This document shows, piece after piece, positions 12,897 to 55,089 of a stretch of DNA of 57,562 nt. Position 1 is the first letter of the stretch. Each line of letters opens with the position of its first letter. Source of the DNA: a virus; IMG/VR virus record IMGVR_UViG_3300020021_000179, positions 1 to 57,562 of that record, one strand, 5' to 3'. The notes below the pieces were generated by a model, which saw only the letters and a list, made by a program, of their open reading frames with translations, was not told where the DNA came from and did not search any database. A program made the position numbers and the translations under genes.

Positions 12897-13190
12897 ATGA
12901 AAAAACTCTTATCCATCCTTCTTATTTGTGTTTGTGGGTGTAATTCAGTAATTAAAGCACCAACCAAACTAGATAGCTTACTGCAATCATCAAGGTATAG
13001 CGACACGGCGATATATTATTTATCAAAGCAATCCGATGCTATTTCAAAAGAAATTAAATACGGATTTGGAACAGATGGGGTAAAGCAGGACGTTGATAAA
13101 AGTCATATTTACGGCGATTCAGCAAGGCGTTATTGGTCAGACAGTATTACATATTTTGTCAAATTAGCCGATAAAATTAATCCGAAATGA
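12897..13190 (+). CDS. small lipoprotein
   Basis: This 97-residue protein has signal MKKLLSILLICVCGCN; the lipobox Cys is residue 15. The mature part is helical and charged (YYLSKQSDAISKEIKYG). It is probably anchored in the host inner or outer membrane and could act in surface exclusion. This is inferred from localisation only. Confidence 0.6.
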   Translation: MKKLLSILLICVCGCNSVIKAPTKLDSLLQSSRYSDTAIYYLSKQSDAISKEIKYGFGTDGVKQDVDKSHIYGDSARRYWSDSITYFVKLADKINPK

Positions 13191-15022: not shown

Positions 15023-16065
15023 AGATACTTTCTTACATACGAGCCAGTTCAGCGCCTTGCTACCATCGCCTCATAATGCCGATTATGATGATGGACAACC
15101 GGGATGTGCTGTTCGCAAACGAGTTCGTTGAGGAACATTATACTGATGAGCTGGATATTGTAATCTATAACCGGGTTATCGGAGATGAATATATTGACAA
15201 GATTAAGGTGCTTAGGGAAAAGTTTGGGTTTAAAATAATTGTCGATGTGGATGATATCTGGCATTTGGATGATCACCATATTCTAGCCAAATATTACATA
15301 GAAGAACAGTTCGCGGCAAGGCAGATAAGACAGATTCGTAATGCGGATATAGTCCTGACCACGCATGCCCGTATGGCGAAGTATATCAGTTCCTTCAATT
15401 CCAATGTTCATGTATGCCCGAATGCTATTCCACATCAGGGGCAGTTTGATATCACACGCGAAGAATCAGAATTCACGCGTCTGTTCTGGCAGGGATCTAT
15501 AACACATAAGGAAGATATACGAATCCTTACCCGGCCCATTGAAGCCCTTGGACCAGTGGCCGAACGAATTAAAATGGTTCTTGGTGGATATACGCGGTAC
15601 GACGACAATGAAACGCCAAAGACAGCAGAAGAAAAGCAGACTGAAGCCGAATGGAGTGAAATGGCTATGATCTTCACGGCCAAGGCGAAACATCAGTATA
15701 AGCTATTGCCACCCGAACCGGTAACGAATTATTACAGCATGTACGCCCATGCTGATATATGCCTTGTTCCGCTGGTTAACAGCTTCTTTAACCGGATGAA
15801 ATCAAATCTGAAGGTACTGGAAGCTGCAAACCTAAGCCTGCCCGTAATCGCCTCCGACGTGCATCCCTATAAGGATTTGCCAATCCGGTATTGCAAGCAT
15901 CCCAATGACTGGATCAAGCATATCACTGATTATTTAAAAGAACCCGAAAAGGCAAAGGAAGACGGATTGAGGCTTAAAGATTTCTGCAATGAGTTTTACA
16001 ATTTTTCAAAGATAAACCTTGAAAGAAGACAAATTTTGGAAAATTGTAAAAAACAGATAGCATGA
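15019..16065 (+). CDS. GT4-like glycosyltransferase
   Basis: I start at ATG 15019 (MKILSYIRAS), which overlaps the previous TGA, rather than the frame-open ATG at 14950 inside that gene. The 348-residue product shows a two-domain GT-B pattern: an N-terminal fold with VDVDDIWHLDDHH and NADIVLTTH, a hinge with RLFWQGSITHKEDI, and a C-terminal donor site with FNRMKSNLKVLEAANLSLPV then IASDVHPY. These fit GT4-type sugar-nucleotide enzymes. It is probably cytoplasmic. It opens a run of glycan genes. Confidence 0.8.
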   Translation: MKILSYIRASSAPCYHRLIMPIMMMDNRDVLFANEFVEEHYTDELDIVIYNRVIGDEYIDKIKVLREKFGFKIIVDVDDIWHLDDHHILAKYYIEEQFAARQIRQIRNADIVLTTHARMAKYISSFNSNVHVCPNAIPHQGQFDITREESEFTRLFWQGSITHKEDIRILTRPIEALGPVAERIKMVLGGYTRYDDNETPKTAEEKQTEAEWSEMAMIFTAKAKHQYKLLPPEPVTNYYSMYAHADICLVPLVNSFFNRMKSNLKVLEAANLSLPVIASDVHPYKDLPIRYCKHPNDWIKHITDYLKEPEKAKEDGLRLKDFCNEFYNFSKINLERRQILENCKKQIA

Positions 16066-28906: not shown

Positions 28907-29268
28907 TGGATCAGCAAATAAGTTTAAAGCCAGCGTTAACCAATGTTCAGGTTGACGATAATACCAAGATCGTTCCATGGGTGGTAGGGGCAACTGGGTT
29001 TGTCAATAAGGCAACGGTCGCGCAGTTGAAGCTAATATTCAGCACCCAACAGCTCGTATATACCGCAACAGGAACAGAGGGGACGGCGCTGGTTATATCA
29101 GCACTAGCCGCCAAAGCCGTATTGATGATCGCCCGGGAAGGGTCAACACTGTATCCTGTTGTATCGGCTCCTGATTCTGTTTCTTATATCTGGGACTTCA
29201 CTACGATCACCTTTGGACTGGCTTTAAATTTCGGAGAACGGTTTTTAATCCTTTACAAGAATGTCTAA
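28906..29268 (+). CDS. small virion protein
   Basis: This 120-residue protein of small-residue-rich, strand-like composition has no recognised motif. It lies between the hub-type gene and the chaperone, so a small tail or decoration protein is inferred. Confidence 0.5.
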   Translation: MDQQISLKPALTNVQVDDNTKIVPWVVGATGFVNKATVAQLKLIFSTQQLVYTATGTEGTALVISALAAKAVLMIAREGSTLYPVVSAPDSVSYIWDFTTITFGLALNFGERFLILYKNV

Positions 29269-35171: not shown

Positions 35172-35558
35172 ATGCTGGAATTCAAACAAAGCGACACGGC
35201 AGCAACGATAATCCTTACGCTGACGGAGTTGGTAACGATTCCAGCTCCCTTCTATCTGTTTGTCTTTAATCATGTGAACACCAGTGACGTTGTATCCTTT
35301 GTGCTGAATTCTACAGCAGATTTAAGCCTTTTCCAGAAACGCTACAATCAATTCCTTATCAATCCTTCAGTTCTTTTTGCAGGCCACGAGCCGGGACAAT
35401 GGAATTACAATATTTATCAGCAGGCAAGCGCCGTCAATACCGATACCGCTTTAACGCAAGGGATATTAGAGTCCGGGCAAATGATCTTGGATAGAACAAC
35501 CGATTTCGATTATGCGAAATACACAGCAGTCACTAACTACAAAGTTTACAACGGATAA
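35172..35558 (+). CDS. virion protein of unknown role
   Basis: I choose ATG 35172 (MLEFKQSDTAATIILTLTEL) because it follows the recurrent motif; an open frame from TTG 35130 would run through the second terminator hairpin. The 128 residues look like a small tail or adaptor protein, with an N-terminal beta-rich segment and FQKRYNQFLIN mid-way. Its stop overlaps the portal start by one base. Confidence 0.6.
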   Translation: MLEFKQSDTAATIILTLTELVTIPAPFYLFVFNHVNTSDVVSFVLNSTADLSLFQKRYNQFLINPSVLFAGHEPGQWNYNIYQQASAVNTDTALTQGILESGQMILDRTTDFDYAKYTAVTNYKVYNG

Positions 35559-37657
35559 TGGAAGACCCACAGGATAAAAATTTACCACAGATTGCCGTTG
35601 TCAAATTCTCCGACAGCAAGATTCCACTATTCAAAGAAACAAAGAATAAGGCTTACGTGCTTTATGGGGAAGACAATAAATACCCAGAATACTTAACGGG
35701 CCTGTTTGATAAGTCAGCCAAACACAATGCTATCGTTACCGGTAAGGCAGCTTATATCTTCGGCAACGGATTTGCCAATGGTGACTTTGAAATCAATGTG
35801 CTTGGGGAAACACTGAACGATTTAGCGCAAAAGGCAAGTCTGGATATAGAATCCTACGGCGGTTTCAAATGGGAAATCATTTTTAATTACCAGGGTATTG
35901 TGTCGGAAGTATACCACGTGGATTACTCTACGATCCGAAAGGCAAAGGACGGTGGATTTTATTTCAAAGAGAAATGGGGCGATCAGTTCGACCGCAACCC
36001 TGGCGAATACATACCCGCTTTCGATCCGGCGCATATCAATACCTCACAGATTTACGAGTATAACGAATACCGCCCGATGACCCGGTTCTATCCGCTTCCG
36101 GGATACATCGCCTGTAACAACTACATAGAAATCGATATTGAGATATCAAAGTTTCATCTGTCCTCCATCCGCAACGGTATGATGCCGTCCAAGATGATTC
36201 AGTTCTTCAAAGGTGAGCCTACGGAGGAAAAAAAGAACGAAGTAGAGAAAAGACTGGCCCGCAAGTTTGCCGGATCCGAAAATGCCGGTAAATTCTTATT
36301 GGTCTTTAACGATGCCAACAGTACAGGGTCGAAAGTTACGGTTGACGACCTGTCGGCTAACGAGCTGGATAAACAGTTTGATATCCTGAACAAAACATGC
36401 CAGCAGGAAATCTTTTCCGGCCACCGGGTGACTTCTCCGATGCTTTTTGGTATCAAGGAAGAAGGGCAGCTCGGAGGAGCAACAGAACTGGCTACATCGT
36501 ATGCGATTTTCCAGAACACGTATTCCAAACCGAAAGCACAGGTTCTTTCAAAAGAAATTCAATATCTCTTAAGCTTCACCAAGTTTAAAGGCCTTTATGA
36601 ACTCAGATCAACCGATCCGATAGGTGTAATTATAAACCCGCATGATGTTGTAAACTCACTCCCAAAGAAATTTGTATTTGAAAGCCTTGGCATACCGCCG
36701 GAAGATTGGGACGGCGAAAACATCGGGGCGGACAACCGGCCAACACAGACGATTCCTATCGCTCCGGCGACAACGATTGGCGCGCCCGATCCGGGAACGC
36801 TTTCTTCAGTTCCGCCAGCACCCGTTAACGAAAACATTAAAAACCTCACGGCAAAGCAGCATCAACAGATGTTGAGAATCATTCGTCAATATACCAAAGG
36901 ACTTCTCACCGCCGCAACGGCAAAAATATTACTACGCCAAGGTCTGGGACTTCCGGACAAAGATATCAATGAGATCCTGGGTATCCCCACAGCCTCAGGG
37001 GCGATGAGTTTCGATGCCGAGGAAGATCGCATCATCGGAATGTTTGACGCCGCTGGCGAGTCTAAGAATGACTACCAGATAGTAAAGTCTAAGCCCGTAA
37101 ACTTCGGAACGGATGTAGAAGCAGAATTTGACGAAGAAGTTTATATCAAGGAAGCGTTTTTAACCACTACGGATTTAACCGTTTCTGAATCTCGTATCCT
37201 GGATCTGATCAAAAAGGATAAACTCATTTCAGCCGTAACCATTTCCGGATTGATAGGCGAAACCGTTGCCTATGTGCAAGGGAAGATTGATGCACTCATC
37301 ACACGCGGATACATTCAACAGAATACTACCAGTGACGGGCTGGATGATATTATCGAACGCGTAGTAATCGAACAACCGGTTATTCCACCGACTACGATTG
37401 ACAACACGCCTATCAGCAAGATTTCTATCATGTATTCCTACGAAGGCCCGCAGGATTCCAGGAATAGGCCTTTCTGCGCCCGCATGATGGAGCTGAGAAG
37501 GCTTTACACAAGAAAAGACATTGAAGATATCAGCGCCCGGCTGGGGTATAGCGTATTCGACCGGCGCGGTGGATTCTGGACAAGGAAGGGAACCCATGAC
37601 ACTACCCCGTACTGCAGACATTCATGGAAAAGTAATATCGTAATTAAAAAAGGATGA
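35558..37657 (+). CDS. portal protein with C-terminal winged-helix and MuF-like segments
   Basis: This 699-residue protein has a portal core at about residues 1-450, with ITKY-type features and the late GHRVTSPMLFGIKEEGQLGG (about 289-308), typical of phage portals. A winged-helix-like region follows at about 537-598 (SESRILDLIKKDKLISAVTI, then KIDALITRGYIQQ). The C-terminal 75 residues have RNRPFCARMMELRRLYTRKD and CRHSWK, resembling the MuF-type minor head module. Portal, HTH-like and MuF-like segments in one chain is unusual. Start and ends are coupled to neighbours. Confidence 0.8.
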   Translation: MEDPQDKNLPQIAVVKFSDSKIPLFKETKNKAYVLYGEDNKYPEYLTGLFDKSAKHNAIVTGKAAYIFGNGFANGDFEINVLGETLNDLAQKASLDIESYGGFKWEIIFNYQGIVSEVYHVDYSTIRKAKDGGFYFKEKWGDQFDRNPGEYIPAFDPAHINTSQIYEYNEYRPMTRFYPLPGYIACNNYIEIDIEISKFHLSSIRNGMMPSKMIQFFKGEPTEEKKNEVEKRLARKFAGSENAGKFLLVFNDANSTGSKVTVDDLSANELDKQFDILNKTCQQEIFSGHRVTSPMLFGIKEEGQLGGATELATSYAIFQNTYSKPKAQVLSKEIQYLLSFTKFKGLYELRSTDPIGVIINPHDVVNSLPKKFVFESLGIPPEDWDGENIGADNRPTQTIPIAPATTIGAPDPGTLSSVPPAPVNENIKNLTAKQHQQMLRIIRQYTKGLLTAATAKILLRQGLGLPDKDINEILGIPTASGAMSFDAEEDRIIGMFDAAGESKNDYQIVKSKPVNFGTDVEAEFDEEVYIKEAFLTTTDLTVSESRILDLIKKDKLISAVTISGLIGETVAYVQGKIDALITRGYIQQNTTSDGLDDIIERVVIEQPVIPPTTIDNTPISKISIMYSYEGPQDSRNRPFCARMMELRRLYTRKDIEDISARLGYSVFDRRGGFWTRKGTHDTTPYCRHSWKSNIVIKKG

Positions 37658-38274: not shown

Positions 38275-38445
38275 ATGCCCAAGGGAATAAGTAATAAGAA
38301 CGAAACGAAGTTAAGAGACTATTTAAAAAAAGCGAATGCCATTAAGCCTAAACAGTGTTCAAAGCAAAATTGCTGCCGTGTGCATGAATCACAAGATGGT
38401 AAACAGCTTTTTCTACGGACTCAAAACGGATCTGCTAACCGCTAA
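38275..38445 (+). CDS. possible small overlapping ORF
   Basis: The 56-residue ORF starts three bases after the connector stop and begins MPKGISNKNETKLRDYLKKA, a plausible basic start. Its last 110 bases lie out of frame inside the next gene, so only the first third is independent. Confidence 0.3.
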   Translation: MPKGISNKNETKLRDYLKKANAIKPKQCSKQNCCRVHESQDGKQLFLRTQNGSANR

Positions 38446-38794
38446 GACGACCAAATACCCGGCGGCATTTCTGGATGACAACGGGTTTACGATCAGCCCC
38501 AGTGGTCACGCGATAACACTTATCTGGCGGCTGTGGTTTCTGGATCTGGTGAATGTAGCCAATTATTCAAACCAGAATGATGTGGACGTAATCAGTGACA
38601 TGCTGGGGATAGCAACGGACATAGTAACAGAATTGAACCGGGATTCAAACGGATGGATTCTGGCTGGTGGCGCAGGGCAACAGGTAGCAGAACAGGACAA
38701 CGATATGCCGTGGGGGGTGTATGTGGATTTTACCCTTCGATTCCCTTATGCTCAAAACAATTGTGAAGTACCAACAACGTCGCCCGTATTATGA
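38336..38794 (+). CDS. neck/tail-completion protein
   Basis: This 152-residue protein begins LSLNSVQSKIAAVCMNHK then VNSFFYGLKTDLLTAKTTKY, a signature that matches tail-completion type proteins of Bacteroidota prophages. The conserved opening supports ATG 38336 as the start despite an overlap with a small upstream ORF. It closes the head-neck block. Confidence 0.6.
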   Translation: MPLSLNSVQSKIAAVCMNHKMVNSFFYGLKTDLLTAKTTKYPAAFLDDNGFTISPSGHAITLIWRLWFLDLVNVANYSNQNDVDVISDMLGIATDIVTELNRDSNGWILAGGAGQQVAEQDNDMPWGVYVDFTLRFPYAQNNCEVPTTSPVL

Positions 38795-41346
38795 AGAAAC
38801 TATTTATTTTTTTACTTTCTTTAACTGCTTTCAGTTCAGCCTTCAGCCAGACGGGGAACGATACGACCAAATATAGCCGGTTTAAAAACTACGGCGACAG
38901 GAAGGCAAGATATTGGGCCGACTCGGTTCTGAATCTACCGAGCGATACTACGTTAAGCAAATGGGGATTGGCAAGGAAAGGATTGCTTCTTTATGTCGGC
39001 GACGGTACGCAGTGGGCACAAACGGGTGGAGGTGGTGGTGGTGGAAGTTTTACTGCCGATGAGCTGACGCTTCATCTTAGCGGCGCGAATGTCTTTTCTA
39101 TTAAATCCACTTATACCGGCCAGCCTTCTATCAACCAAGTGGGCGCACTAGCAAACGGATCTATCATTGCTGGATTTACCCCTATCGGAGACGGACAGAT
39201 ATCTAGTTCCGGTATATGGAATGCTAAATTAACCTCTACGCTTCCTTCTGGAAATATATTCGTAGGCAACGGATCTAATATTGCTACGGCGGTTTCTGTC
39301 AGTGGCGACGGAAGTTTTAATAACTCTGGCGTTTTAACACTAAGCAATACCACTGTTACCCCAGCCAGTTATACGAACGCCAATATAACCGTAGATTCAA
39401 AGGGTCGCGTAACGGCGGCGGCAAACGGTACAGGAGGCGGGGCAAGCACCCCATTCCCTGACAACTCCGCTATAGTTGAAGCGAATGCCGATCACACTAA
39501 ACTTCTTATCCTAAATGCCAGCTCAATCACCACGGCGACAACGCGAACGCTAACTTCCCCCGATGCATCTGGAACGATTGATCTACAAAACAACGCAGCG
39601 ACATTAACAAATAAATCTATTTCAGGATCGACCAATACGATCACCAATATATCGGAACCCGCGTTTCTATTCTCCAATATCACGACAGCCAATGCAACCA
39701 CTTCGCAGCACGGGCTATTGCCAAAACTCCCAAATGATACTACGCTATTCCTGAATGGACAAGGGGCATATACCGTCCCCTCTAAATTCATTTTACCTCA
39801 TACTTTAATTGGCATAGGTAATACCGCTGGATTTTTAGCTTACTCTACTTCTTTCTTTTATGATTCGTCGGCCTCTTATGCGCGGCTGGTTGGTGGCGTT
39901 GCCGGAACCGGGGATCAATTTGAAATCGGAACCAAATCCGCAAATACGCTTTGGTTAACCAATAATCCGGGATCGCTTCAGGCCAGTGTCAAAAGCAATT
40001 TCACGATGATCGCCCCTGCTCCGTCAGCAGCAGAATGCACCAACTGCACAGACATAGGAGGCACGGTTGGCAGCGGTGGAAACAACGTAAGCGTAGGGCA
40101 GCTTGCCGGTGGACGAAGCGGAAGCACGGGTGCAAACAATACGATCATCGGTTACCGGTCTGGAACTTTCGATAATACCCATCCGACCACAACAACCTTT
40201 AACGGAGATATTTTTCTAGGGTCTTTCACCGGGCCAGATAATACGCAGTTGAATCCTTCGATTTCCAATAGCACCATGATTGGGAACTCGATAAATATTG
40301 ACAGTAACAACGTTGCCATATTCGGGAATGCCAATCAGAGAATCATTTTAGGATTGACCAATGGTGCCACTCCCGGCGGCGTTACTTCTGATATGCTGGC
40401 TTTTTCGCCCATGGTAGGACAGATCTTTTACAACCAGGACAGCGCAGTCTATTGTATGTACAACGGAACCAAATGGATTAAATGGGGTGGTGGTTCGGGC
40501 GGAGGTGGTGGTGGCTTTGCCGATCCGCTTACAACGACTTATGATGTGATGTATCGCAACGGAAGCAACGTAACAACGAGGCTTCCCAAAGGAGCTAACA
40601 ATACCGTTCTGTTAACGGATAACAGTGGCGTGGTGGGATATAATCTTTTGATTAATTCCAACATGGCTACGATGCCAGCGCATACCCGCAAAGGGAATAT
40701 ATCCGGATCATCGGCCACACCAGCAGATATAACCAGCGCACAGGAAACAGCGGACTTGAATTTATTTACAACGTCTTTGCAGGGTCTTGTTCCGGCATCT
40801 ACTGGCGCGGTAACGGATTTCCTTCGGGGTGATAAGACATGGTCCCCACTACCTACAGATACTTTTTCACTAAGAACTCCGGGAACAGGTTCAGGAGCGT
40901 TAGCGCTTGCCTTTGCCAATGCAGGCGCTTTGGTCATCCCCAAGATTGCACCGGGAACGAATATCACATTCTCTGTTGCGGGGGATAGTTTGCTGACGAT
41001 AAATGCATCTGGTGGAAGCTCCGGCGTTGCCCTTGATGCCACACAAACTTATACAACAGGGGCAACACTTACAGTTACAAACGGAAATAATTACGTATAT
41101 GTAAATCCATCAACAGTACAGGCCGCCCTCACGATAACCCTTCCGACCACATGGCATAATTCAAATAACGTGTATATAATTTTTGGCGGCACAATAACGT
41201 CCGGTAATCCGGTTATCACTTCTTTTTCAGTAACAGGCGGAGTTGGGCAGACGAAAGTCGAAGCGGTAACGCCGTCAGGGACTTTTAATTCCGGCGAAGT
41301 CATTTTATATCATTTGAACGGGACTCTTGACAACAGAATATTATGA
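38791..41346 (+). CDS. tail-fibre-like protein with Sec signal peptide
   Basis: This 851-residue protein has signal MKKLFIFLLSLTAFSSAFSQ (1-20, A-F-S-Q cleavage region). Then a segment RKARYWADSVLNLPSD, a Gly-rich linker, and long stretches of tail-fibre repeats: SYTNANITVDSKGRVTAAAN, a YadA-head-like region NNVSVGQLAGGRSGSTGANN, and a second Gly-rich linker. It is probably a trimeric fibre or adhesin; the exported N-terminus is unusual for a virion part. It overlaps the next gene by four bases. Confidence 0.65.
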   Translation: MKKLFIFLLSLTAFSSAFSQTGNDTTKYSRFKNYGDRKARYWADSVLNLPSDTTLSKWGLARKGLLLYVGDGTQWAQTGGGGGGGSFTADELTLHLSGANVFSIKSTYTGQPSINQVGALANGSIIAGFTPIGDGQISSSGIWNAKLTSTLPSGNIFVGNGSNIATAVSVSGDGSFNNSGVLTLSNTTVTPASYTNANITVDSKGRVTAAANGTGGGASTPFPDNSAIVEANADHTKLLILNASSITTATTRTLTSPDASGTIDLQNNAATLTNKSISGSTNTITNISEPAFLFSNITTANATTSQHGLLPKLPNDTTLFLNGQGAYTVPSKFILPHTLIGIGNTAGFLAYSTSFFYDSSASYARLVGGVAGTGDQFEIGTKSANTLWLTNNPGSLQASVKSNFTMIAPAPSAAECTNCTDIGGTVGSGGNNVSVGQLAGGRSGSTGANNTIIGYRSGTFDNTHPTTTTFNGDIFLGSFTGPDNTQLNPSISNSTMIGNSINIDSNNVAIFGNANQRIILGLTNGATPGGVTSDMLAFSPMVGQIFYNQDSAVYCMYNGTKWIKWGGGSGGGGGGFADPLTTTYDVMYRNGSNVTTRLPKGANNTVLLTDNSGVVGYNLLINSNMATMPAHTRKGNISGSSATPADITSAQETADLNLFTTSLQGLVPASTGAVTDFLRGDKTWSPLPTDTFSLRTPGTGSGALALAFANAGALVIPKIAPGTNITFSVAGDSLLTINASGGSSGVALDATQTYTTGATLTVTNGNNYVYVNPSTVQAALTITLPTTWHNSNNVYIIFGGTITSGNPVITSFSVTGGVGQTKVEAVTPSGTFNSGEVILYHLNGTLDNRIL

Positions 41347-43805
41347 GAAATTTAATAACGATATTATTTGTTATGCTATGCGCCGTATCCTTTGGACAGG
41401 GCGTACACGTAACAGCAAACAACCCAGGACATCCTTATTATGCAAAAGATTGGGGATTCAAAGGAGATAGCTCGACAGACAATACACCGATATTCAGAAA
41501 TTTCATACTAATAACGCCTTCCGGTTCCGATCTGTGGTTTGACAACGGTAAATTTTTATTTTCCGACAGTGTGCTATTTAAAGGATACAGCATTCACATT
41601 CACGGGACAGGTATGGGTGGCGAAAAAGTATTTAGCGATACAACTGGGAATCGTTCTTTCCAGTGTGCGTTTTATTACACCAGTTCTACAAAAAACTTCC
41701 TCGTATTCGACACATCGGCGACAAATACATCGCCCGGAATTTCAATAGACAATATCGCTATCATCAATTCATCTTCGGTCGTACCAACGGCGGGAGCGGC
41801 GATAGTAGTTAAAAATAACGTGAACTCATTCCATTTCGAGAACCTTCGGGTACGCAGGTTCTTTATCGACTACGATTTCCAGGCAACTTATTACTGGTCG
41901 ATGGTCAACTGCCGGATCGACTGGCCGGTGAAAATAGGCATACGGCTTGGTAATAACATCGATGCCGATCTGGGTGACTGGTCTATCGTCGGTTGTATTT
42001 TCCAGTCGGGTTTCTACAATGTAACCGACTGCGTTGGGTTCCTTTGGCTGGCAGGCGGCGGCGGTAAGGTTGTAAACTGTAAATGGAATTCATCTGATTA
42101 TTCCACAACGCCGGCGCATCATTTCAGTAAATGTATTTACGCAACATTCACACAAGGGGCTACATCTGATTTCGTGTGTAATAATACTTCATTCGAAAAC
42201 TTCGACTCGACAGCCATCAAGATGAATAATCTTTCGGGTGGTCTTGTATCTCATATACAGATTGATAACGTTCAGATTTCACCGGTCAATAACGCATCCA
42301 GTGTTCAGTCGGCTATTGATTTAAATAATTTTGCGCTGGTAACAATTAATAATGCAGTAGGTCGAAACTATGTCGGATCAATTTCGCATCCCTTTATCCT
42401 GCTTCAAAATATTGTAAGCGGAAGTATCAGCGGTCAGATTTCAGTAGTGGATTATAGCAGCGTCTACAGTATGGTAAGCTGCACGAATGTTACGGCAGAT
42501 TATCTTCTTAGTAACCAGATTTCTCTTGCATCCGACGCCACAAAGAATGGTGTATTAGTTGGTACGCTTGGAATGGAGTGTACAGGTACGAACTCTTGTC
42601 TTGTTCAGGAAAACAGCACATATAGCGCCGGTTATACAAGAAATGCAACAGGATGGGCGGACAACTTTTTCTTTGGCGCTGGTGAAATAGCGGCTCAAAT
42701 GTCAACCGTATCAGCAGCGGGTGGAACAATACCAACATTTAAAATTCCACTCCGGTGGAATGCAACACAAGTGGCAATCGGTGGCGACGTACAAAGCCCA
42801 ACGCTTGCGGGCCTGTCTTCTTTATATGTCGATGCCACAAGTATAAAAGTGGCTGATTTTGCCGTTCCCAATGGCACTACATCCGATTCCGTTTTGGTTG
42901 GAACAACTTCAGCGGGAATCATGACGGTGAAGAAAGTCGCCCAGTCATCCATTGGCGGAAGCGGCCTTTCGGGTCTTACGGCTACTGATTTAATGGTAGC
43001 TCAAACATCTTCAAGTATCGGTGGAGATGCAACGCTTACCTACGTAACATCAACGGGTCAGCTTGCCTTAAATAAAAGCCAGAACGCGGGAACACAATTC
43101 ACAGTTACAAACAATAACGGCGGTACGGGTACTAATGCAACTGTCACCGTTACAGATCTAACACACTATGCACAGATAGGAATTTTCGGAACGGGGGCAA
43201 CGCCTTATGGCGCTGTCGGAGCTGATAACGGATACTTTTATTCCAACGCGCCGAAGTTCATTTTTATGAATGATAACGCATCTGGAGAAATAGATATCGC
43301 TATTGGAACAACACCATCAGCGCAGGATAAATTTAAGGCCAACGGATCAATTGTCTTTGGGCTTTATGGTGCGGGGACATTTACTGGAACCGCAACTAAA
43401 ACAGCGCAGTTCGATGCATCCGGAAATCTAATTGAAGGCGACGCCGTTTCCGGTGGCACATGGGCATCATCTCCGGCCAACACGACGAATATTGCATCCA
43501 GTTCCGAAACAAATGTAAGATATCACAGAGTCGGTAATACTGTTTTTTGTCAGGTTGGTTACGGGATTACGCCTTCACTTGGAAGCGGCGCGCAGACCGT
43601 TTTAACGCTCACACTTCCATTTAATACCGCAACCACAACGCAAGGGGCGGCGGGAACCGGCACTTGGTCAGATAATGCAGGAGCGGGTGTTTATACCGGG
43701 GCGGAAGTTCAGATACAATCGGCATCAACGGCAACAATACATTTTCAGGCAACATCAACGGCAGCCGGAATATTAACGGCATCATTCGCTTATAAATTAA
43801 ACTAA
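41343..43805 (+). CDS. exported pectate-lyase-fold tailspike-like protein
   Basis: This 820-residue protein has signal MRNLITILFVMLCAVSFGQG, then DWGFKGDSSTDNTPIF (about 37-52), the start of pectate-lyase-type beta helices in tailspikes. The helix-like body is followed by fibre-type C-terminal repeats (GNLIEGDAVSGGTW, SSSETNVRYHRVGNTVFCQV). It may be a glycan depolymerase or receptor-binding spike. The Sec signal is again notable. Confidence 0.65.
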   Translation: MRNLITILFVMLCAVSFGQGVHVTANNPGHPYYAKDWGFKGDSSTDNTPIFRNFILITPSGSDLWFDNGKFLFSDSVLFKGYSIHIHGTGMGGEKVFSDTTGNRSFQCAFYYTSSTKNFLVFDTSATNTSPGISIDNIAIINSSSVVPTAGAAIVVKNNVNSFHFENLRVRRFFIDYDFQATYYWSMVNCRIDWPVKIGIRLGNNIDADLGDWSIVGCIFQSGFYNVTDCVGFLWLAGGGGKVVNCKWNSSDYSTTPAHHFSKCIYATFTQGATSDFVCNNTSFENFDSTAIKMNNLSGGLVSHIQIDNVQISPVNNASSVQSAIDLNNFALVTINNAVGRNYVGSISHPFILLQNIVSGSISGQISVVDYSSVYSMVSCTNVTADYLLSNQISLASDATKNGVLVGTLGMECTGTNSCLVQENSTYSAGYTRNATGWADNFFFGAGEIAAQMSTVSAAGGTIPTFKIPLRWNATQVAIGGDVQSPTLAGLSSLYVDATSIKVADFAVPNGTTSDSVLVGTTSAGIMTVKKVAQSSIGGSGLSGLTATDLMVAQTSSSIGGDATLTYVTSTGQLALNKSQNAGTQFTVTNNNGGTGTNATVTVTDLTHYAQIGIFGTGATPYGAVGADNGYFYSNAPKFIFMNDNASGEIDIAIGTTPSAQDKFKANGSIVFGLYGAGTFTGTATKTAQFDASGNLIEGDAVSGGTWASSPANTTNIASSSETNVRYHRVGNTVFCQVGYGITPSLGSGAQTVLTLTLPFNTATTTQGAAGTGTWSDNAGAGVYTGAEVQIQSASTATIHFQATSTAAGILTASFAYKLN

Positions 43806-43808
43806 AAC

Positions 43809-44066
43809 ATGAAACTATTAACAATCGCTTTTTTATTTATTGGTTCATCGGGTTTCGCGCAGAAAAATATCGTAGCTCCGCCTATTCCACACGACACGAC
43901 TTATGTCCTGCAAATAGACGCGGCGATATGGCAAAAAATTCAGTATGTGATCAGTAAATCAAATGCCGAACATCTGGTATGGAAGGAAGTAGATGAATAT
44001 ATCAATCCCGCCGATCCCAAGAATAGAAAAATTAAAATGGTCGTTGATTCGGTAATAAAGAAATAG
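43809..44066 (+). CDS. small exported protein
   Basis: This 85-residue protein has signal MKLLTIAFLFIGSSGFAQ (about 1-18). The mature part is helical (IDAAIWQKIQYVISKSNAEH) and charged. It lies between two larger exported proteins and may be a chaperone or accessory of the fibre cluster. Confidence 0.55.
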   Translation: MKLLTIAFLFIGSSGFAQKNIVAPPIPHDTTYVLQIDAAIWQKIQYVISKSNAEHLVWKEVDEYINPADPKNRKIKMVVDSVIKK

Positions 44067-44068
44067 CT

Positions 44069-46654
44069 ATGAAGAAACTTCTTATCGTCCTTTTATCTCT
44101 GATCTCTTTCGCGCAGGCGCAAGTAACCACGACTTCCTATACCCGTCTGGCAGGTGACTACATACGTCCGAACGGAAGTTTCGAGCATTGGGGTACCTCA
44201 GATTGGGGGGCGTTCAATGCAACGCCGCAGATACCGGCCGGCAACTCGGTAGCAATGGATTATTACATGCGTCTGAACTGGACGGATATCGAATCCACAA
44301 CAACGCAAGGAACTTATTCGTGGACAATATTTGACAATGCGGTCAATCAATGCATAGATGCGGGCGCGATGTTTCACATGGCTGTCATGGATATGTGTTC
44401 CGCCTGCGGGCTTCCGGCCTTCGGGTATCCTACTTACTTGCATAATTTAATGCAAGCGGAAACAGCAAATTCCCGTGACTGGCAGGATGCCGATGGCGTG
44501 TGGATTCCAAACTGGAACTCGCCAAACTATATCGCACGGTATTCGGCTTTGATGACAGCCATTGCCGCTCATATCGCCGGGACTTCTCACTCAGGCCACA
44601 CCTACGCGTCTGCTTTTTCAAGTTGGGATATCCGTTCTTACGGAGACTTCGGGGAAGGGCATACCTACCCTTGGACAGGAACGGAGCCGACAGGCAGAAC
44701 AGCTACCACGGCTTCACTGGAGGCCTTGATTAATGCAGCGATTACCACGTTCCCGGGTGTGCAGATCACCAACCCGATGGCTTATTTCGATCACGGGCAT
44801 GCATCTGATCTTCCATTAGATTTCTGTTATTTCATGCTCACGGCTCAAAACGCTTATGGACATTTCGGATGGAGGCGCGACAACATCGGAGACGACGGGT
44901 ATAACGCTTATCTGAACGCCGATCCGAATACTTTTTCCGGACATCTGTTTCAGCCGATCATCATGGCCGCATGGCAGTTTGCGCCCATTGGCGGCGAACC
45001 GGCAAATGATTTAAATGGCACGAGTCGTTGCGGATCTATTCAGTGCGATCTGAATAACGAAATTAATATGTTCCACATTACCTATTGCGGCAATGGGAAC
45101 TATCCCATACCCACCAACGACCCGACAAACGGAACGGCTCTTGTAAATGCTATCCGGGCAGGCAATGCCATCATGGGTAATAAACTCGTACTGGATACGA
45201 CAAGAATAACGACTTCTCCCTCAACCGGCGGAACATTTAACATCAGTGCGTACTGGAAAAATATTAATGTCGCGCCCATTTACGAAAAGAAATGGAAGAT
45301 TATCTACGAACTCCGCAAGACCTCCGATCAGTCTGTTCAGTGGCGCGACACTTCCAAATTCAAACTTTATTTATTTCTGCCGCAGGCGAAAGACTCCGTA
45401 TTCAACGATAACTATTTACTCACCGGCGTGGCGGCATCTACCTACGATCTGCACATGTTCATCAAAGATTCAACTGGGTACAGACTTCCTTATCCTTTGG
45501 GGATCACCGGCAGACAAACAGACGGAAGCTATATCATTCGCGCGGGCATAGTAGTCAATACCAGCGGCGTACCAACGGCCAATGCCGGAGCCGATCAGAC
45601 GATTGCCCTTCCTTCTTCATCGGTAACGGTGGATGGATCGCTTTCCTCAGGTGCTTTAACGAGTTTTCTTTGGACTAAAATATCAGGGCCGAACACGCCT
45701 ACGATAGTAAGCCCTACAGCAATATCAACGATTATCGGTGGACTGATTCAAGGAACTTATGTTTTTCAACTTGGTGTTAATGGCGGCACGACCGGCTCTT
45801 TCATCGATCAGGTAACAGTTATTGTCAATCCCGCCCCACCGGCAGGAGCCAACGCCGGCAGCGATCAAACGATTACCCAACCGGCGGCATCTGTTGTTCT
45901 GGATGGATCTGGATCAACCGGGACAATCGCGTCTTACGCATGGACAAACGTCTCTGGGCCGGTCACGCCAGTTATTGCGACATCGACAAGCGTATCCACA
46001 ACCGTAACGGGAATGAGCGCGGTCGGTACTTACGTATTCCAACTTTCTGTAAACGGCGGTGTGTCGACCGATCAGGTAACGGTAAATGTAAATGCGCAAC
46101 CGTCAAACGGGGTTCACATATTTACAGCTCAGATCCCCGCAGGCGGAACAGGCGGTCCTGATGTAGCAGGAGGAATTGAACTTGGAGTTAAATTCAAATC
46201 AACACTCTCGGGATATATCACAGGAATACGTTTTTATAAGACTTCTGGCCTCACAGGAACCCATACCGGAGAGCTTTACACGGCAGCAGGCGTACGACTT
46301 GCTTCAGCCATATTCACCGCCGAATCGGCTACAGGATGGCAGAGCGTGTCTTTTGCGGCGCCCGTTGCAATCACCGCCGGAACGACTTATATCGCGGCTT
46401 ATTTAAGCAGCGCGGGACTTTATGTGAACGATGAATTTGGTTTGCAGGCAGCGATTACCAATTCACCACTTCAGGCATTGGCTGACGGCGCTTCCGGAGT
46501 AAACGGACTTTTCGATTATACCAGCGTCGCCAAAGTTCCGACATCATCTTTTCACTCGACAAATTATTGGGTGGACGTTATTTTTTCAGCAACCAATCCC
46601 AATAAAACCATTCATTTAAAATCAAGTCATATTTATTTTATACCCGCACCATGA
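44069..46654 (+). CDS. exported glycoside-hydrolase-like multi-domain protein
   Basis: This 861-residue protein has signal MKKLLIVLLSLISFAQAQ (1-18). Residues about 20-490 look like a TIM-barrel plus sandwich (MDYYMRLNWTDIES, SSWDIRSYGDFGEG, FHITYCGNGNYPI), reminiscent of DUF4832-type hydrolases. Two PKD-like domains follow (NAGADQTIALPSSSVTVDGS and NAGSDQTITQPAASVVLDGS), then a DUF4082-like C-terminal domain (about 680-845, VKFKSTLSGYITGIRFYK). The layout is of a secreted or cell-surface glycan enzyme. No C-terminal sorting domain for type IX secretion is visible. Confidence 0.65.
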   Translation: MKKLLIVLLSLISFAQAQVTTTSYTRLAGDYIRPNGSFEHWGTSDWGAFNATPQIPAGNSVAMDYYMRLNWTDIESTTTQGTYSWTIFDNAVNQCIDAGAMFHMAVMDMCSACGLPAFGYPTYLHNLMQAETANSRDWQDADGVWIPNWNSPNYIARYSALMTAIAAHIAGTSHSGHTYASAFSSWDIRSYGDFGEGHTYPWTGTEPTGRTATTASLEALINAAITTFPGVQITNPMAYFDHGHASDLPLDFCYFMLTAQNAYGHFGWRRDNIGDDGYNAYLNADPNTFSGHLFQPIIMAAWQFAPIGGEPANDLNGTSRCGSIQCDLNNEINMFHITYCGNGNYPIPTNDPTNGTALVNAIRAGNAIMGNKLVLDTTRITTSPSTGGTFNISAYWKNINVAPIYEKKWKIIYELRKTSDQSVQWRDTSKFKLYLFLPQAKDSVFNDNYLLTGVAASTYDLHMFIKDSTGYRLPYPLGITGRQTDGSYIIRAGIVVNTSGVPTANAGADQTIALPSSSVTVDGSLSSGALTSFLWTKISGPNTPTIVSPTAISTIIGGLIQGTYVFQLGVNGGTTGSFIDQVTVIVNPAPPAGANAGSDQTITQPAASVVLDGSGSTGTIASYAWTNVSGPVTPVIATSTSVSTTVTGMSAVGTYVFQLSVNGGVSTDQVTVNVNAQPSNGVHIFTAQIPAGGTGGPDVAGGIELGVKFKSTLSGYITGIRFYKTSGLTGTHTGELYTAAGVRLASAIFTAESATGWQSVSFAAPVAITAGTTYIAAYLSSAGLYVNDEFGLQAAITNSPLQALADGASGVNGLFDYTSVAKVPTSSFHSTNYWVDVIFSATNPNKTIHLKSSHIYFIPAP

Positions 46655-47061
46655 AAAAACTAATCATTATAGGACTTCTTATTGTTGCCGCCATTTCTGT
46701 AACATACGCACAAACGGTCATCAGTCCATCCACGACAGTGCTGGCCTTTAGCGCAATGAACACGGGTCAATACCGGTTTATCAACTCCGGCGATACAGTG
46801 TATTTCAATAAGGATACACTAGGAATTAAAATCGTTTCGATTACAGTTCACGATACAATTCCAAAGATTTGCCCGGTTTGTAAGGTATTTTCTAAAGCGG
46901 ATACTGTAGCTATTCAGGCATTGAAAATATGCCCTCCGCCAATTATCTGTCCGGCATGTCCGCCAATACCAAAACAGAGAACAGCGACAGGAATTAGCTG
47001 GGATATTATTTTAAATAAGAAAACAATCACGTACGATAACGGAACTACATCAACCCTATGA
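46651..47061 (+). CDS. small exported Cys-rich protein
   Basis: This 136-residue protein has signal MKKLIIIGLLIVAAISVTYAQ (1-21). The mature part has CPVCK and CPPPIICPACPP, a Pro/Cys-rich stretch that could form disulfides or bind metal. It is ATGA-coupled to the next gene. The function is unknown. Confidence 0.55.
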   Translation: MKKLIIIGLLIVAAISVTYAQTVISPSTTVLAFSAMNTGQYRFINSGDTVYFNKDTLGIKIVSITVHDTIPKICPVCKVFSKADTVAIQALKICPPPIICPACPPIPKQRTATGISWDIILNKKTITYDNGTTSTL

Positions 47062-47234
47062 CACATACGAATCCAACTGGCGTTCCTGGACTTTTATTAA
47101 TATCCGTTAGTTGGATACTTCACTTTATGAATCTATTCGATAAGGCTAACATAACCTTTATTCTTGGCGCCGTAGCGTCACTGGCAGCAATTATTTATTA
47201 CGTCATACAAATTAAAAAATCACTTAAAAGCTAA
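47058..47234 (+). CDS. candidate holin (58 aa)
   Basis: The 58-residue ORF begins with ATGA overlap on the upstream stop. It has two hydrophobic spans (GLLLISVSWILHFM, about 11-24; ITFILGAVASLAAIIYYVIQI, about 32-52) and a basic C-terminus (KKSLKS), typical of small two-pass holins. It precedes another membrane protein. Holin identity is inferred from size, topology and position. Confidence 0.55.
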   Translation: MTHTNPTGVPGLLLISVSWILHFMNLFDKANITFILGAVASLAAIIYYVIQIKKSLKS

Positions 47235-47238
47235 ATCA

Positions 47239-47556
47239 ATGACACAGATTGTAACAACAAAAACATCGGCAAATATTCTTGGGCTAAGCGATTGGCTTAA
47301 AGGGTTTTTAGTAGCCATTATTTCCTCCGTGCTGACGGTAATTTATACCAGTTTTAGTGCAGGTTCTTTGACTTTCGAATATAAATCAATCGCACTCGTT
47401 GCCGGAACATCAGGAATAGGGTATCTGCTAAAGAACGGATTTTCGCCAGCCGTAACTACGATAACGCCACCTCCTGGAACTGTTGCTGGTGAAACAGTTA
47501 CCGTTCAGATTCCAGCACCGGGTAAGACAATTACAGAAACAATTACAAAACCATAA
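47239..47556 (+). CDS. membrane protein, possible holin or holin partner
   Basis: This 105-residue protein has a span at about 22-40 (WLKGFLVAIISSVLTVIYTS) and a weaker one around 52-66, plus a Pro/Thr-rich C-terminal tail. It resembles membrane proteins I recall upstream of lysis genes in Bacteroidota prophages. It may act with the 58-aa holin candidate. Confidence 0.55.
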   Translation: MTQIVTTKTSANILGLSDWLKGFLVAIISSVLTVIYTSFSAGSLTFEYKSIALVAGTSGIGYLLKNGFSPAVTTITPPPGTVAGETVTVQIPAPGKTITETITKP

Positions 47557-47570
47557 TTCAAATTTAATTT

Positions 47571-48047
47571 ATGTCAATTTTCACAAAAGCATGGGACTGG
47601 CTAAAAGGCGTTTTCGGATCAGTAGGACAGTCAGCAGATTCAATCGCAATCGTTATCACAGAACAAATTCAGTCAGCATTGAAATCGGGCGTTGCGGGAT
47701 TTCTGGCAACGGTCATTGATGGCCTGACAAAATCCAACGTTGGGGATGAAGTCCTGAACCTCTTAAAGAAATATATTCCGGAAGTGCTGGCCGTTGAGCT
47801 TGCCATTCAGGGATTGCCCGCCAATCCAACGGAAGCTGATATTTTAGCTTTCGAACAGCGTGTACTTGCTGCATTTGGCGTTACAGATAACACATCAAAG
47901 CTATACACAACTGTCGCCGCGCAATTATATGGGAGACTTCAGGAAGCGTTGCTTGACAAGAAATTAACCTTCGCCGAATGTGTTGCTATCGTTGAAGGAA
48001 CTTATCAGGATTATGTAGGAGATCAGAACGCCACGCCGGATGCATAA
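47571..48047 (+). CDS. hypothetical protein of the lysis/tail region
   Basis: This 158-residue helical soluble protein has WDWLKGVFGSVGQSADSIAI at the start and a Leu/Ala-rich body with an amphipathic pattern. It recurs at similar positions in Bacteroidota prophages as far as I recall. The 3' end overlaps the next gene by eight bases. Confidence 0.55.
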   Translation: MSIFTKAWDWLKGVFGSVGQSADSIAIVITEQIQSALKSGVAGFLATVIDGLTKSNVGDEVLNLLKKYIPEVLAVELAIQGLPANPTEADILAFEQRVLAAFGVTDNTSKLYTTVAAQLYGRLQEALLDKKLTFAECVAIVEGTYQDYVGDQNATPDA

Positions 48048-49653
48048 ATGGTTCTTCATATTATTTCTTGTCGGATGTTCAACGCACGTTCCACCGATCA
48101 TCTACGGGCCTACTCCGGTTTCACCGGTTCCCACGCCCATGCCTGTAATAATTGACACGACAGCTTCGGCGATTGACACGACTCAGTTTGCATTCAACGG
48201 AGAGATCAGTGTAAAATATTTCGGTGCAAAAGGTGACGGCATAAGCGATGATTATATACCTATTCAAAACGCATGTAATTATTGTATCGTTCATCCATGG
48301 GTATGCTCGACCGTTGGTATTCCAATTGGCCATTACCGTTCTTCTCAATCAATTAAACTCAGCAATCATGGAAAATTCTTTACGGTCAGACTACAGGGGG
48401 ATGTATCAAACAAATCGGCAAGCGATCCTTACCTGTCGCAGATTACTTTCGACAATATAGCTGGGTACTGCATTGGCATCCAACTTGGCCGAAGTATCGA
48501 AATCGAAAATCTTACCCTTATTGGAAAATACGGATTCCCAAATACGGTTAACAATCAAAACATTGGAACTCTTAAATTCTCAGATTGGGCTGATGGATCA
48601 GTTGTCGATTCGAGATATGCACCGTACGCCGGAATCAGTATCGACCCAGAAGCAAATGCCAGCGGGTCGCGTGGCGGGACATCAGACGTTACAATAAAGA
48701 ACTGCGCGATCAAACAATTTATGGTGGGCATTTGCCTTACACCAAATGCATCTACGCTTAACGATGAAATAGCAAACATTCTGGAAGATGATATTGAAGC
48801 CTGCCGGGTGGCAATAGCGATAGGTCAGGATCAATCGAAAACAATAAATATAAAAGGCCTGAAAGTCTGGGCCTCCGTTCACACGATCATTGACGGGATA
48901 AGTTATGGCCGAGGCACCGGTGGCGGATCGTTGTTTTGCGAAAACTGGAATGTTGCCGGAAATGTGAATGAGCTCTTTAATCTCAGCACAACTACTTTTC
49001 CGCTTTCCTGTAAGGATATTTATTCTGAAAGTCTTTTCCGTTTTGGATATGTCGGTAACGGTGCGGGAACAAACTGCTTGAACTGCCAGATTGATTTTCT
49101 TTCCGGACCTGGTTGGCCTGCTCCAGATTATCTGATCGCCGGGCAGATCAATTTCAGCGGTGGAATGCTCAGATATTACGACAACAGCCAGACTCACCGC
49201 ATGAACCTTTCGAATGTAAGCGGGGCTTTCCGGGATATGACCATGAACGTGCAGCCGTTAGTCATTGGCCTTTACGGCTCACCGAACCCACAACCCACAT
49301 TCGATAATGTCCATAATTACTACGGAAACGGTTTTATTAACCCACACGATACCTTAATTTATTTCCACACGACGCCAACGCTCATCATAGACCGCATTAA
49401 TTGGATCGGTAGCGTGGTTGTGCCAGACCTGGTTGCAAAACAGTCTGCGATCGGGGATTATATCATTGCGCAACCAGCCAGCTGGGGAAGGGGCGCGTAC
49501 GACCCTTATCTGAACGCTCAGAATTTGAATACCATTCAGATCGGACGCATCACATCAATTTCAGGCGACACTTTAAAACTTGACGATATAGGCATTAACA
49601 CATATTCAGGATCTGGATACGATTTAATGTTCTTGGGTAAGATTGTTCACTAA
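48040..49653 (+). CDS. lipoprotein with pectate-lyase fold (depolymerase-like)
   Basis: This 537-residue protein has a lipoprotein signal MHKWFFILFLVGCST with the lipobox Cys at 13. After a Pro-rich linker it shows YFGAKGDGISDDYIPIQNA (about 60-78), the conserved opening of pectate-lyase-type beta-helix tailspikes, then a long helix-like body. It may cut capsule or exopolysaccharide, but a lipid-anchored form would sit on the cell surface rather than the virion. Confidence 0.65.
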   Translation: MHKWFFILFLVGCSTHVPPIIYGPTPVSPVPTPMPVIIDTTASAIDTTQFAFNGEISVKYFGAKGDGISDDYIPIQNACNYCIVHPWVCSTVGIPIGHYRSSQSIKLSNHGKFFTVRLQGDVSNKSASDPYLSQITFDNIAGYCIGIQLGRSIEIENLTLIGKYGFPNTVNNQNIGTLKFSDWADGSVVDSRYAPYAGISIDPEANASGSRGGTSDVTIKNCAIKQFMVGICLTPNASTLNDEIANILEDDIEACRVAIAIGQDQSKTINIKGLKVWASVHTIIDGISYGRGTGGGSLFCENWNVAGNVNELFNLSTTTFPLSCKDIYSESLFRFGYVGNGAGTNCLNCQIDFLSGPGWPAPDYLIAGQINFSGGMLRYYDNSQTHRMNLSNVSGAFRDMTMNVQPLVIGLYGSPNPQPTFDNVHNYYGNGFINPHDTLIYFHTTPTLIIDRINWIGSVVVPDLVAKQSAIGDYIIAQPASWGRGAYDPYLNAQNLNTIQIGRITSISGDTLKLDDIGINTYSGSGYDLMFLGKIVH

Positions 49654-51988: not shown

Positions 51989-52744
51989 ATGGGAACCGTG
52001 AAGATTTATTACTGGAAAGAGAAAAAGAATTTTGGAGACTTGCTTGGGGGGTTGTTACTGAAAAGATTCACACGCCTGGAATCGCAATGGTCAACAGCAA
52101 AGGAAGCCGATATAGTTATTGTCGGCTCTGTGTTGGAGCATTTACCAGCGGATTGGAAAGGTGTAATCGCGGGCGCCGGAAAGCTGCATGAAAAATCAAA
52201 ACTCGGTTTCCCTAATGCTAAAATCTTAGCACTACGCGGGCCATTGACAGCAAGGGGATTTAAAGGCAGCTTTGCACTGGCTGATCCGGGATTACTGGCC
52301 GACGAACTGGTACCAATTGAAGAAAAGGAATTTGATTTAGGAATAGTTCCGCACTGGACAGATACAACGCTGGAAAAAAATCCAGTATTTAAACAGTTTA
52401 ATCCAAAGATTATTCGGGTATCGGACGACCCCTTAAAAGTGATCAGCGAAATCGGAAGGTGTAAAAAGATAGTCAGTTCATCCCTTCATGGGATCATTCT
52501 GGCCGATGCTTTCGGCATACCACGCCGGATTGAAATTCCACCACGGTCACTCAGTCACCCGAATCAGGAAGGCGGTTTGTTCAAATGGCAGGATTATAGT
52601 TCAAGCCTTGGCGTAAAACTGGTAATCGGAACAACACAATTAATTAACCGGAATAAAATAATAGAACTTCAGCATGAGTTATTCGACGTTTTCGAGGAAG
52701 TGGCGGCGATTTTTAATCACCATAGGATTAATTCACAGGCCTAA
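51989..52744 (+). CDS. polysaccharide pyruvyltransferase-family protein
   Basis: This 251-residue protein begins VKIYYWKEKKNFGDLLGGLL, then VIAGAGKLHEKSK, LALRGPLTARGF (about 80-91), and the late KIVSSSLHGIILADAFGIP (about 161-179), the standard pattern of polysaccharide pyruvyltransferases that add pyruvate ketals to glycans using PEP. It follows the endolysin and precedes another glycosyltransferase, with a 71-bp overlap. Confidence 0.85.
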   Translation: MGTVKIYYWKEKKNFGDLLGGLLLKRFTRLESQWSTAKEADIVIVGSVLEHLPADWKGVIAGAGKLHEKSKLGFPNAKILALRGPLTARGFKGSFALADPGLLADELVPIEEKEFDLGIVPHWTDTTLEKNPVFKQFNPKIIRVSDDPLKVISEIGRCKKIVSSSLHGIILADAFGIPRRIEIPPRSLSHPNQEGGLFKWQDYSSSLGVKLVIGTTQLINRNKIIELQHELFDVFEEVAAIFNHHRINSQA

Positions 52745-53501
52745 GATTAGTTTATTGATTCCGTTTTCGTCCACTGACCATATCAGAAGGAGGAACTTTA
52801 AATGGTTATTGGAATATTGGAGAAGCGAACTGCCACACGCTGAAATTATCATCGGTAAATCGCGCAGTAAAGTATTCTGCAAGGGAGAAGCACTGAATCA
52901 TTGCCTGAACAAGTCCAACGGAAAGGTGCTGGTTGTGCTGGATGCAGATGCTTATATGCCGGGCCACATCATTAACCGGTGCGCCAATAGAATACTGGAA
53001 GAACTTGATCACGGATTATGGTATGTTCCTTACCGGCATTTGTACCGACTGACGCAGGAAATAACGGATCTTGTTATCCATTCAAACCCGGAATATCCAT
53101 TTAGAATACCCGTTCCACCACCGGATTGCTGGATAGAAAATCAGGGGGATATATCAAAATATGGAAGCCGCTACGGGGCTATGATAACCATATTCCCGCG
53201 CGAAGCGATCAGGACGATCAAATGTTTCGACGAACGATTTAAGGGTTGGGGTGGTGAAGATATTGCTTTGCTCCGGGCGCTGGATACTCTGTATGGAAAA
53301 CACAAGACGACACGCAATGCGGTCTTTCACTTGTGGCATCCCTTCCACGGGGATACGTACAGGACAAGGGTTTGGGATAGCCAGAAATATCCCGGTAATA
53401 ACAGCCAGCTGGCGAATAAATATAATTCAGCTACGAGGAACCTGAAGAAAATGAATGAGATCATAAGAGAGAGCCACGACTACTATAAGAAGAATAACTA
53501 A
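52674..53501 (+). CDS. glycosyltransferase (GT2/GT7-like)
   Basis: This 275-residue protein has ISLLIPFSSTDHIRRRN, the DXD-type motif VVLDADAYMPG (about 87-97), and YGAMITIFPREAI followed by FKGWGGEDIALLRAL (about 190-204), a signature of beta-1,4-galactosyltransferase-like C-terminal domains. The start overlaps the pyruvyltransferase out of frame by 71 bp; a downstream start would lose the strand at about 25. It is the last plus-strand gene before a terminator. Confidence 0.8.
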   Translation: MSYSTFSRKWRRFLITIGLIHRPKISLLIPFSSTDHIRRRNFKWLLEYWRSELPHAEIIIGKSRSKVFCKGEALNHCLNKSNGKVLVVLDADAYMPGHIINRCANRILEELDHGLWYVPYRHLYRLTQEITDLVIHSNPEYPFRIPVPPPDCWIENQGDISKYGSRYGAMITIFPREAIRTIKCFDERFKGWGGEDIALLRALDTLYGKHKTTRNAVFHLWHPFHGDTYRTRVWDSQKYPGNNSQLANKYNSATRNLKKMNEIIRESHDYYKKNN

Positions 53502-54552: not shown

Positions 54553-54637
54553 ATTATATTACTGATATTATATGCAATTCAACCTATGAGCTGAATTAAT
54601 TGAGAAATATTCAATCTTGAGGCTGCAAATTGAAACC

Positions 54638-54994
54638 TCAATAAGCGAGTGTCATCATTTGACTGAACTGCGCAGACGTGCCGATATATTCGATTTGGTA
54701 TTGCATGGGGCTGGCATCGCTATAATGGGGGCATTCGACAATCTGCGAACCGTCTTTAACTACCACATCATATTTATAGTTCAGGCTTGTATTATCGGTT
54801 TTGTAGATGACCAGTTTAACCTGGTTGTAGGATGCCGACTTTACAATATTAACCTTAACATCCATGACCCCATTGGCAACCGTAGCACTCACGACAGTAA
54901 CGGAAGGTTGTTGCGCCGGCGGCGGGGTTGTTGGTTGGTCGTTGCTTTTGGAGCAGGCGACCAGAAGCATCAGAGGTATTATTATCTTTTTCAT
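54638..54994 (-). CDS. lipoprotein
   Basis: This 118-residue protein has signal MKKIIIPLMLLVACSKS with the lipobox Cys at 14, a Pro/Thr-rich linker and a small beta-rich domain. It sits among the minus-strand genes of the regulator region and could be expressed from the lysogen as a cell-surface (conversion or exclusion) factor. This role is inferred from position. Confidence 0.65.
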   Translation of the reverse strand: MKKIIIPLMLLVACSKSNDQPTTPPPAQQPSVTVVSATVANGVMDVKVNIVKSASYNQVKLVIYKTDNTSLNYKYDVVVKDGSQIVECPHYSDASPMQYQIEYIGTSAQFSQMMTLAY

Positions 54995-55089
54995 ATCCTA
55001 AAAGTATAACAGAAATAATAAATCTGCAAGTCACCCGTTTATCTAAGGGTAAACACTTAGTCTAATTTGCATGAATTTTTAATCAAATT

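Follow-up and report, generated by a model that had tools for sequence, protein, structure and literature searches.

Bacteroidota-type export signals in the fibre-slot gene cluster of a virus and on virion-annotated proteins of other phages

The sequence analysed, hereafter the window, comprises 57,562 bases and was taken from the IMG/VR virus records. The slot of interest is marked by genes for the portal (35558-37657, 699 aa, identified by a PHROG match), a connector (37654) and a head-closure/tail-completion-like protein (38336-38794, plus strand). At its C-terminus the portal carries a long extension, possibly a fused head-morphogenesis domain, whose last part is a Cys/His-containing stretch (FCARMM...YCRHSW) conserved in relatives. 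Eight plus-strand genes follow between 38791 and 49653. The first, fibre 1 (38791-41346, 851 aa), consists of a 19-aa signal peptide with Gln at +1 (38791-38847), a conserved mature N-terminal module (38848-39027; ..NDTTKY..YG.R..R.WADS...P.DTT.., from alignment) and a variable body. Fibre 2 (41343-43805, 820 aa) has an 18-aa signal of the same kind, called Q-rule below, a pectate-lyase-like opening and a fibre-like C-terminus. Next come a small exported-type protein of 85 aa with a Q-rule signal peptide (43809-44066), a possible spanin or periplasmic helper, and an enzyme-like protein of 861 aa (44069-46654) in which a Q-rule signal is combined with a DUF4832-like domain, two PKD domains and DUF4082. 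A second small exported-type protein with a Q-rule signal (46651-47061, 136 aa) contains CPVC/CPAC motifs and is possibly related to lysis; small Q-rule proteins are also encoded downstream of the portal in two other sequences, L047 and L053. Two signal-free genes encode a putative holin-like small membrane protein, so assigned from hydrophobic segments in its translation (47239-47556), and a protein of 158 aa (47571-48047). The last gene encodes a pectate-lyase-like lipoprotein of 537 aa with tailspike-like matches (48040-49653). Elsewhere in the window, regions 51989-53501 and 15019-16065 hold genes for a polysaccharide pyruvyl transferase, a galactosyltransferase-like protein and another glycosyltransferase, possibly used by the phage to modify glycans of the host or the virion.

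Instead of SignalP, signal prediction used a home-made rule set that considers the hydrophobic core, the charge, the -3/-1 rule and the lipobox. The rule-based scan recovered what a preliminary description of this DNA had reported: Sec signal peptides open five of the eight cluster genes (38791, 41343, 43809, 44069 and 46651), and a sixth, 48040, is signal-bearing through its lipobox. In the whole window 8 of 85 non-overlapping ATG ORFs were positive. Six of these lie among the eight cluster genes, compared to two among the remaining 77. The controls gave 2 positives among 121 spurious ORFs and, after shuffling of the same genes' N-termini, 3.9% with any signal and 1.8% with a signal followed by Gln. 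The predicted sites (a slash marks the cut) are MKKLFIFLLSLTAFSSAFS/QTGND in 38791, MRNLITILFVMLCAVSFG/QGVH in 41343, MKLLTIAFLFIGSSGFA/QKN in 43809, MKKLLIVLLSLISFAQA/QVTT in 44069, MKKLIIIGLLIVAAISVTYA/QTV in 46651 and, at the lipobox of 48040, MHKWFFILFLVG/CSTH. Thus, Gln at +1, the 'Bacteroidetes Q-rule', is readable in five of five SPI signals of the window, the sites in 41343 and 44069 having been chosen by this rule where the generic -3/-1 rule or an earlier Gln also fits; because of these alternatives the exact cut in the two proteins is a prediction. Since Gln follows A/G/S in 3.2% of cases elsewhere in window proteins, five of five has a chance probability of about 3e-8. For Bacteroidetes SPI substrates the published mean frequency of +1 Gln is 71% (PMC5837995).

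Misplaced start codons as the source of the signals were considered and rejected. Four genes (38791, 41343, 46651 and 48040) begin before their predecessor has ended, so that start and stop overlap, and 44069 begins 2 bases past a stop. In 38791, moreover, about 400 residues pass without an internal Met. This coupling and the late Met support the annotated starts. Three further ORFs of the window deserve mention. A 133-aa protein distant from the fibre cluster (10109-10510) has the Q-rule signal MKLFLLVLLSTNLHA/QLTG, a 97-aa protein that starts with MKKLLSILLICVCGCNSV (12897-13190) is probably a lipoprotein that the rule set did not recognise, and a 118-aa minus-strand ORF with a good lipobox, MKKIIIPLMLLVACSKSND (54638-54994), overlaps a plus-strand ORF of similar length (54617-55009).

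Domain searches characterized the large proteins. The products of 38791 and 41343 are fibre-like: they are repetitive and lysine-poor, with C-termini of fibre type. Fibre 2 gave a weak tblastn match to a Shewanella phage protein and no match to Pfam; its AlphaFold model (pLDDT 38) was too poor for assessment of a trimeric right-handed beta-helix. Both pectate-lyase openings listed in the preliminary description are present, GFKGDSSTDNT in 41343 and FGAKGDGISDD in 48040. The latter protein matched PF12708 with E 1.6e-5 (25.3 bits, slightly below the Pfam cut-off of 27) as well as PHROG tail spike (E 1e-4) and tail fiber families. Its lipobox, FLVG/C, includes the Cys. In surface-exposed Bacteroidota lipoproteins an acidic export signal follows this Cys; no acidic residue, and hence no such signal, was found in C-STHVPPIIYG of 48040. 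The two PKD domains (K319L-type) and the DUF4082 domain of 44069, which had also been described earlier, scored well above cut-off. The match of this protein to the glycoside-hydrolase-like DUF4832 family was weak (E 0.0015, 18.7 bits, cut-off 29.2); its GDFGEGH motif aligns to G-W-GE of host DUF4832 members, and the AlphaFold model of the domain (pLDDT 41) was too poor to use. The PKD pair shows 62% identity to that of a Bacteroidota host protein which combines a Q-rule signal with a T9SS tail, and DUF4082 shares about 42% identity with host proteins. No T9SS sorting tail was detected in nine fibre-cluster proteins (four from the window, including 44069, and five from relatives), while the host homologue used as a control matched TIGR04183 with E 9.7e-13. 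Cysteine counting revealed no clear pattern. The original view of the locus as a fibre and depolymerase cluster does not extend to the small proteins 43809 and 46651.

Portal relatives led to two sequences, G001 and G002, whose same-slot fibres match 38791 from residue 1 to about residue 80, signal included. A scan with the 38791 N-terminus then gave 11 viral contigs, these two among them. In the resulting 12-member family, members were picked by homology and fibre slots by position. The order portal, connector, head closure, fibre is common to contigs with enough upstream sequence and is kept in L097/L098, L099 and L102-L112. Every readable family fibre starts with a Q-rule signal and continues with a conserved module of ~60 residues (consensus ..DSTKY....YG.R.PR.W.DS...P.DTT..), which we propose as a putative tail-docking domain in the window's fibre 1. 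The bodies vary and include a calcineurin-like phosphoesterase (L097), a GDSL esterase (L102) and a pectate-lyase-like stretch (L103); L102 and L103 each encode an additional fibre that likewise starts with a Q-rule signal. A cytosolic 120-aa tail-module protein of the window (28906-29268, plus strand), 34-38% identical to same-slot proteins of G001 and G002, is a speculative candidate for a fibre adaptor. Its grouping with phi10:1 gp090 into a single adaptor family found no support, the two being only 10% identical.

Direct searches of IMG/VR with 38791, 44069 and 48040 returned nothing usable, in contrast to the portal-based ones. The 38791 N-terminus had no tblastn match in phage records, and the N-terminal module had none in 395 Bacteroidota genomes in a run that, having no positive control, shows little. 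Distant portal relatives (e.g. L006, L008 and L013) have fibres without a signal in the same or a similar slot, and the corresponding fibres of Nonlabens P12024S and Cellulophaga phi46:1 are also signal-free. The signal-less fibres near the slot in L006, L008, L013 and L015 begin with MAIGIGIGIPFGRRRAG, a conserved start in which a short hydrophobic stretch is followed by arginines. Bacteroides phage B40-8 and Flavobacterium phage FCL-2 have no large Q-rule fibre, so such fibres are not universal.

In close pairs of family fibres, pN/pS is 0.25-1.0 in the signal compared to 0.05-0.18 in the next 58 residues, with synonymous sites close to saturation and a short signal region. While its sequence drifts, the signal stays hydrophobic; on the module, strong purifying selection acts. 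A disposable signal beside a working domain has this pattern, which is expected if the signal is removed. The 62% identity of the 44069 PKD pair to a host protein might suggest that the signals are leftovers with no role, acquired by recent capture of host genes for secreted proteins. However, the Q-rule is kept on fibre 1 even among phages in which only about a third to half of the residues of this N-terminus are shared, and Q-rule signals are kept in other phage families too. Such conservation disfavours the capture scenario, and we give it hardly any credence.

The preliminary description had proposed virion mass spectrometry as a check, and for other Bacteroidota phages GenBank records contain this information; we used the MS/MS annotation text as written, not raw data. 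According to these notes, 12 signal-bearing fibre-slot proteins of four phages are virion proteins, and 11 of the 12 have Gln at +1. They are gp091-094 of phi10:1 (consecutive genes, all with Q-rule signals), gp101-104 of phi19:1, gp085-087 of phi18:3 and gp08 of phiSM (both with Q-rule signals). In the one exception, phi19:1 gp104, Lys occupies +1 and the opening, VYGVVGDGVADDT, is pectate-lyase-like; the signal of this protein was read by eye, the rule set calling it only hydrophobic. We take the four phages to represent three tail types, siphovirus-, podovirus- and myovirus-type. Of the other MS/MS-noted virion proteins of phi10:1, phi19:1 and phiSM, 38 were checked and none has a signal. 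Conversely, phi10:1 and phi19:1 each encode two more signal-peptide ORFs that lack the MS/MS note, an argument against bulk contamination. The predicted mature N-terminus of phi10:1 gp094 is pyroGlu-TVEGTVGSDGSLIPYNVSGGLDETAVDTK. Virion presence is thus annotated for proteins of these phages and not for the window's phage. As the window fibres have no detectable homology to those of Cellulophaga phages, the virion conclusion is transferred to the window through slot, signal type and kinds of body.

The lyase body of phi10:1 gp093 recurs in phi46:3 gp081 behind a swapped, gp082-type signal and in Ingeline behind another signal. Without any signal, it is present in phi4:1 gp052 and in gp097 of the crAss-like phage phi14:2, both MS/MS-noted; homologous lyase bodies without a signal have another N-terminus where the signal would be. 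Comparison of phi10:1 and phi46:3, which belong to different families (L121 30343-37690 and L118 2701-5992), revealed shuffled fibre signals and bodies, with a signal always kept.

The preliminary description had left a choice between export signals repurposed as virion attachment tails and depolymerases or adhesins secreted by infected or lysogenic cells. Real export signals and the presence of their carriers in virions, as MS/MS-noted elsewhere, each retain one half of this choice; the uncleaved attachment tail fits the data poorly. An uncut signal acting as a hydrophobic plug or anchor inserted in the tail tip would account for the signal-bearing proteins annotated in virions and for the other N-terminus found at the signal's position in signal-free bodies. 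An anchor, however, has no need of +1 Gln, which is present in 24 of 25 non-redundant signals gathered across phages (a set partly collected by the Q-rule scan, so that the Gln share is biased upward). Nor does it fit the free drift of signals beside a tightly constrained mature N-terminus or their swapping between fibres, as in phi46:3 gp081. We consider such a plug quite improbable. In another reading, the signal would hold fibres at the inner membrane during tail docking and be cut late, which is compatible with both the signals and the virion presence. No membrane-docking genes were recognised, however, and +1 Gln suggests ordinary processing; we consider a tether very unlikely.

Secretion alone, in which depolymerases and adhesins released in free form by infected cells remove capsule or matrix for the progeny and are not virion parts, agrees with the functional appearance of the cluster signals and with the host affinities of the 44069 PKD and DUF4082 domains, one of the host proteins being T9SS-exported with a Q-rule signal. 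Phi10:1 gp095 and phiSM gp09, which have signals and no MS/MS note, would also fit, and secretion may apply to 44069 and 48040. Against it stand the 12 MS/MS-noted proteins, the signal-free homologous bodies that are virion proteins in phi4:1 and phi14:2, and the position of the cluster in the fibre slot with tailspike-type modularity. We therefore regard purely secreted products as unlikely. Nothing supports lysogeny, since no integrase, and likewise no repressor, was found among about 48 proteins scanned with PHROGs.

Our analysis favours a third reading, in which the export signals are genuine and their carriers nevertheless become part of virions. Specifically, we think it somewhat more probable than its negation that the large cluster proteins are fibre- or tailspike-type proteins which leave the cytoplasm before joining the virion. 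Translation from the annotated ATG would yield a Bacteroidota-type signal peptide, as read from the sequence. The Q-rule suggests that Sec export would follow, with signal peptidase I cutting before Gln and the host cyclising Gln to pyroglutamate. Proteins computed to have no T9SS sorting tail would be retained in the periplasm, 48040 as a lipoprotein. At lysis the fibres could then encounter tails coming out of the cytoplasm and attach to them by the conserved module that lies next to the cut, after which the variable enzyme or binding bodies, to judge from their domains, would face surface glycans. For the MS/MS-noted virion fibres, Sec export and signal cleavage are what we infer from the sequences. 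Pyroglutamate has been reported to shield exported proteins against proteolysis (PMC10653852), a benefit for fibres that wait there until lysis if they are parked in the periplasm. A phage might export its fibres because their folding requires it, or so that sticky fibres stay out of the cytoplasm. Several observations count against the export route: more distant portal relatives, P12024S and phi46:1 have signal-free fibres, phi10:1 gp095 and phiSM gp09 carry signals and no MS/MS note, the PKD and DUF4082 domains of 44069 resemble host secreted proteins, and lyase bodies reach the virions of phi4:1 and phi14:2 without a signal.

Textbook assembly of tailed phages is cytoplasmic; some phages may build part of the tail outside the cytoplasm. 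As a tentative generalisation, to which we assign slightly less than an even chance, some Bacteroidota tailed phages would assemble their receptor-binding apparatus extracytoplasmically, by means of Sec, SPase I, pyroglutamate formation and joining at lysis, as a modular trait gained or swapped across siphovirus-, podovirus- and myovirus-types. If virion fibres do pass through Sec, current views of their folding (calcium, disulfides, periplasmic chaperones), of the order of assembly and of the timing of lysis in Bacteroidota phages would need revision, and signal-bearing genes should be kept in searches for receptor-binding proteins or depolymerases instead of being dropped as bacterial. Porphyromonas gingivalis phages encode Q-rule proteins of unknown function (PMC10367356), and lyase proteins of Ingeline and Nekkels were described with 'signaling peptides' (PMC8776804). 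In a search mostly without subscription literature, we found no paper connecting signals, virion presence and fibre assembly.

The closest parallels are Cellulophaga phi10:1 and phi19:1 (Assiduviridae), phi18:3 and phi46:3 (Pachyviridae), phiSM, and Ingeline, which like the window have consecutive Q-rule genes in the fibre slot, lyase types included; the lipobox protein 48040 sets the window apart from the Cellulophaga phage cassettes, as none was seen among Cellulophaga fibres. With pectate-lyase-type tailspike depolymerases the window proteins share the GDG..DD opening, a variable enzymatic body after a conserved N-terminus and the position among tail genes, but ordinary tailspikes of this type have no export signal. 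The PKD pair and the signal type of 44069 are those of T9SS-secreted Bacteroidota enzymes with PKD domains, from which it differs by lacking the sorting tail. Finally, the window signals precede Gln just as in Bacteroidetes Q-rule SPI substrates (PMC5837995, PMC10653852); the known substrates are host proteins, whereas the carriers in the window are encoded by a phage.
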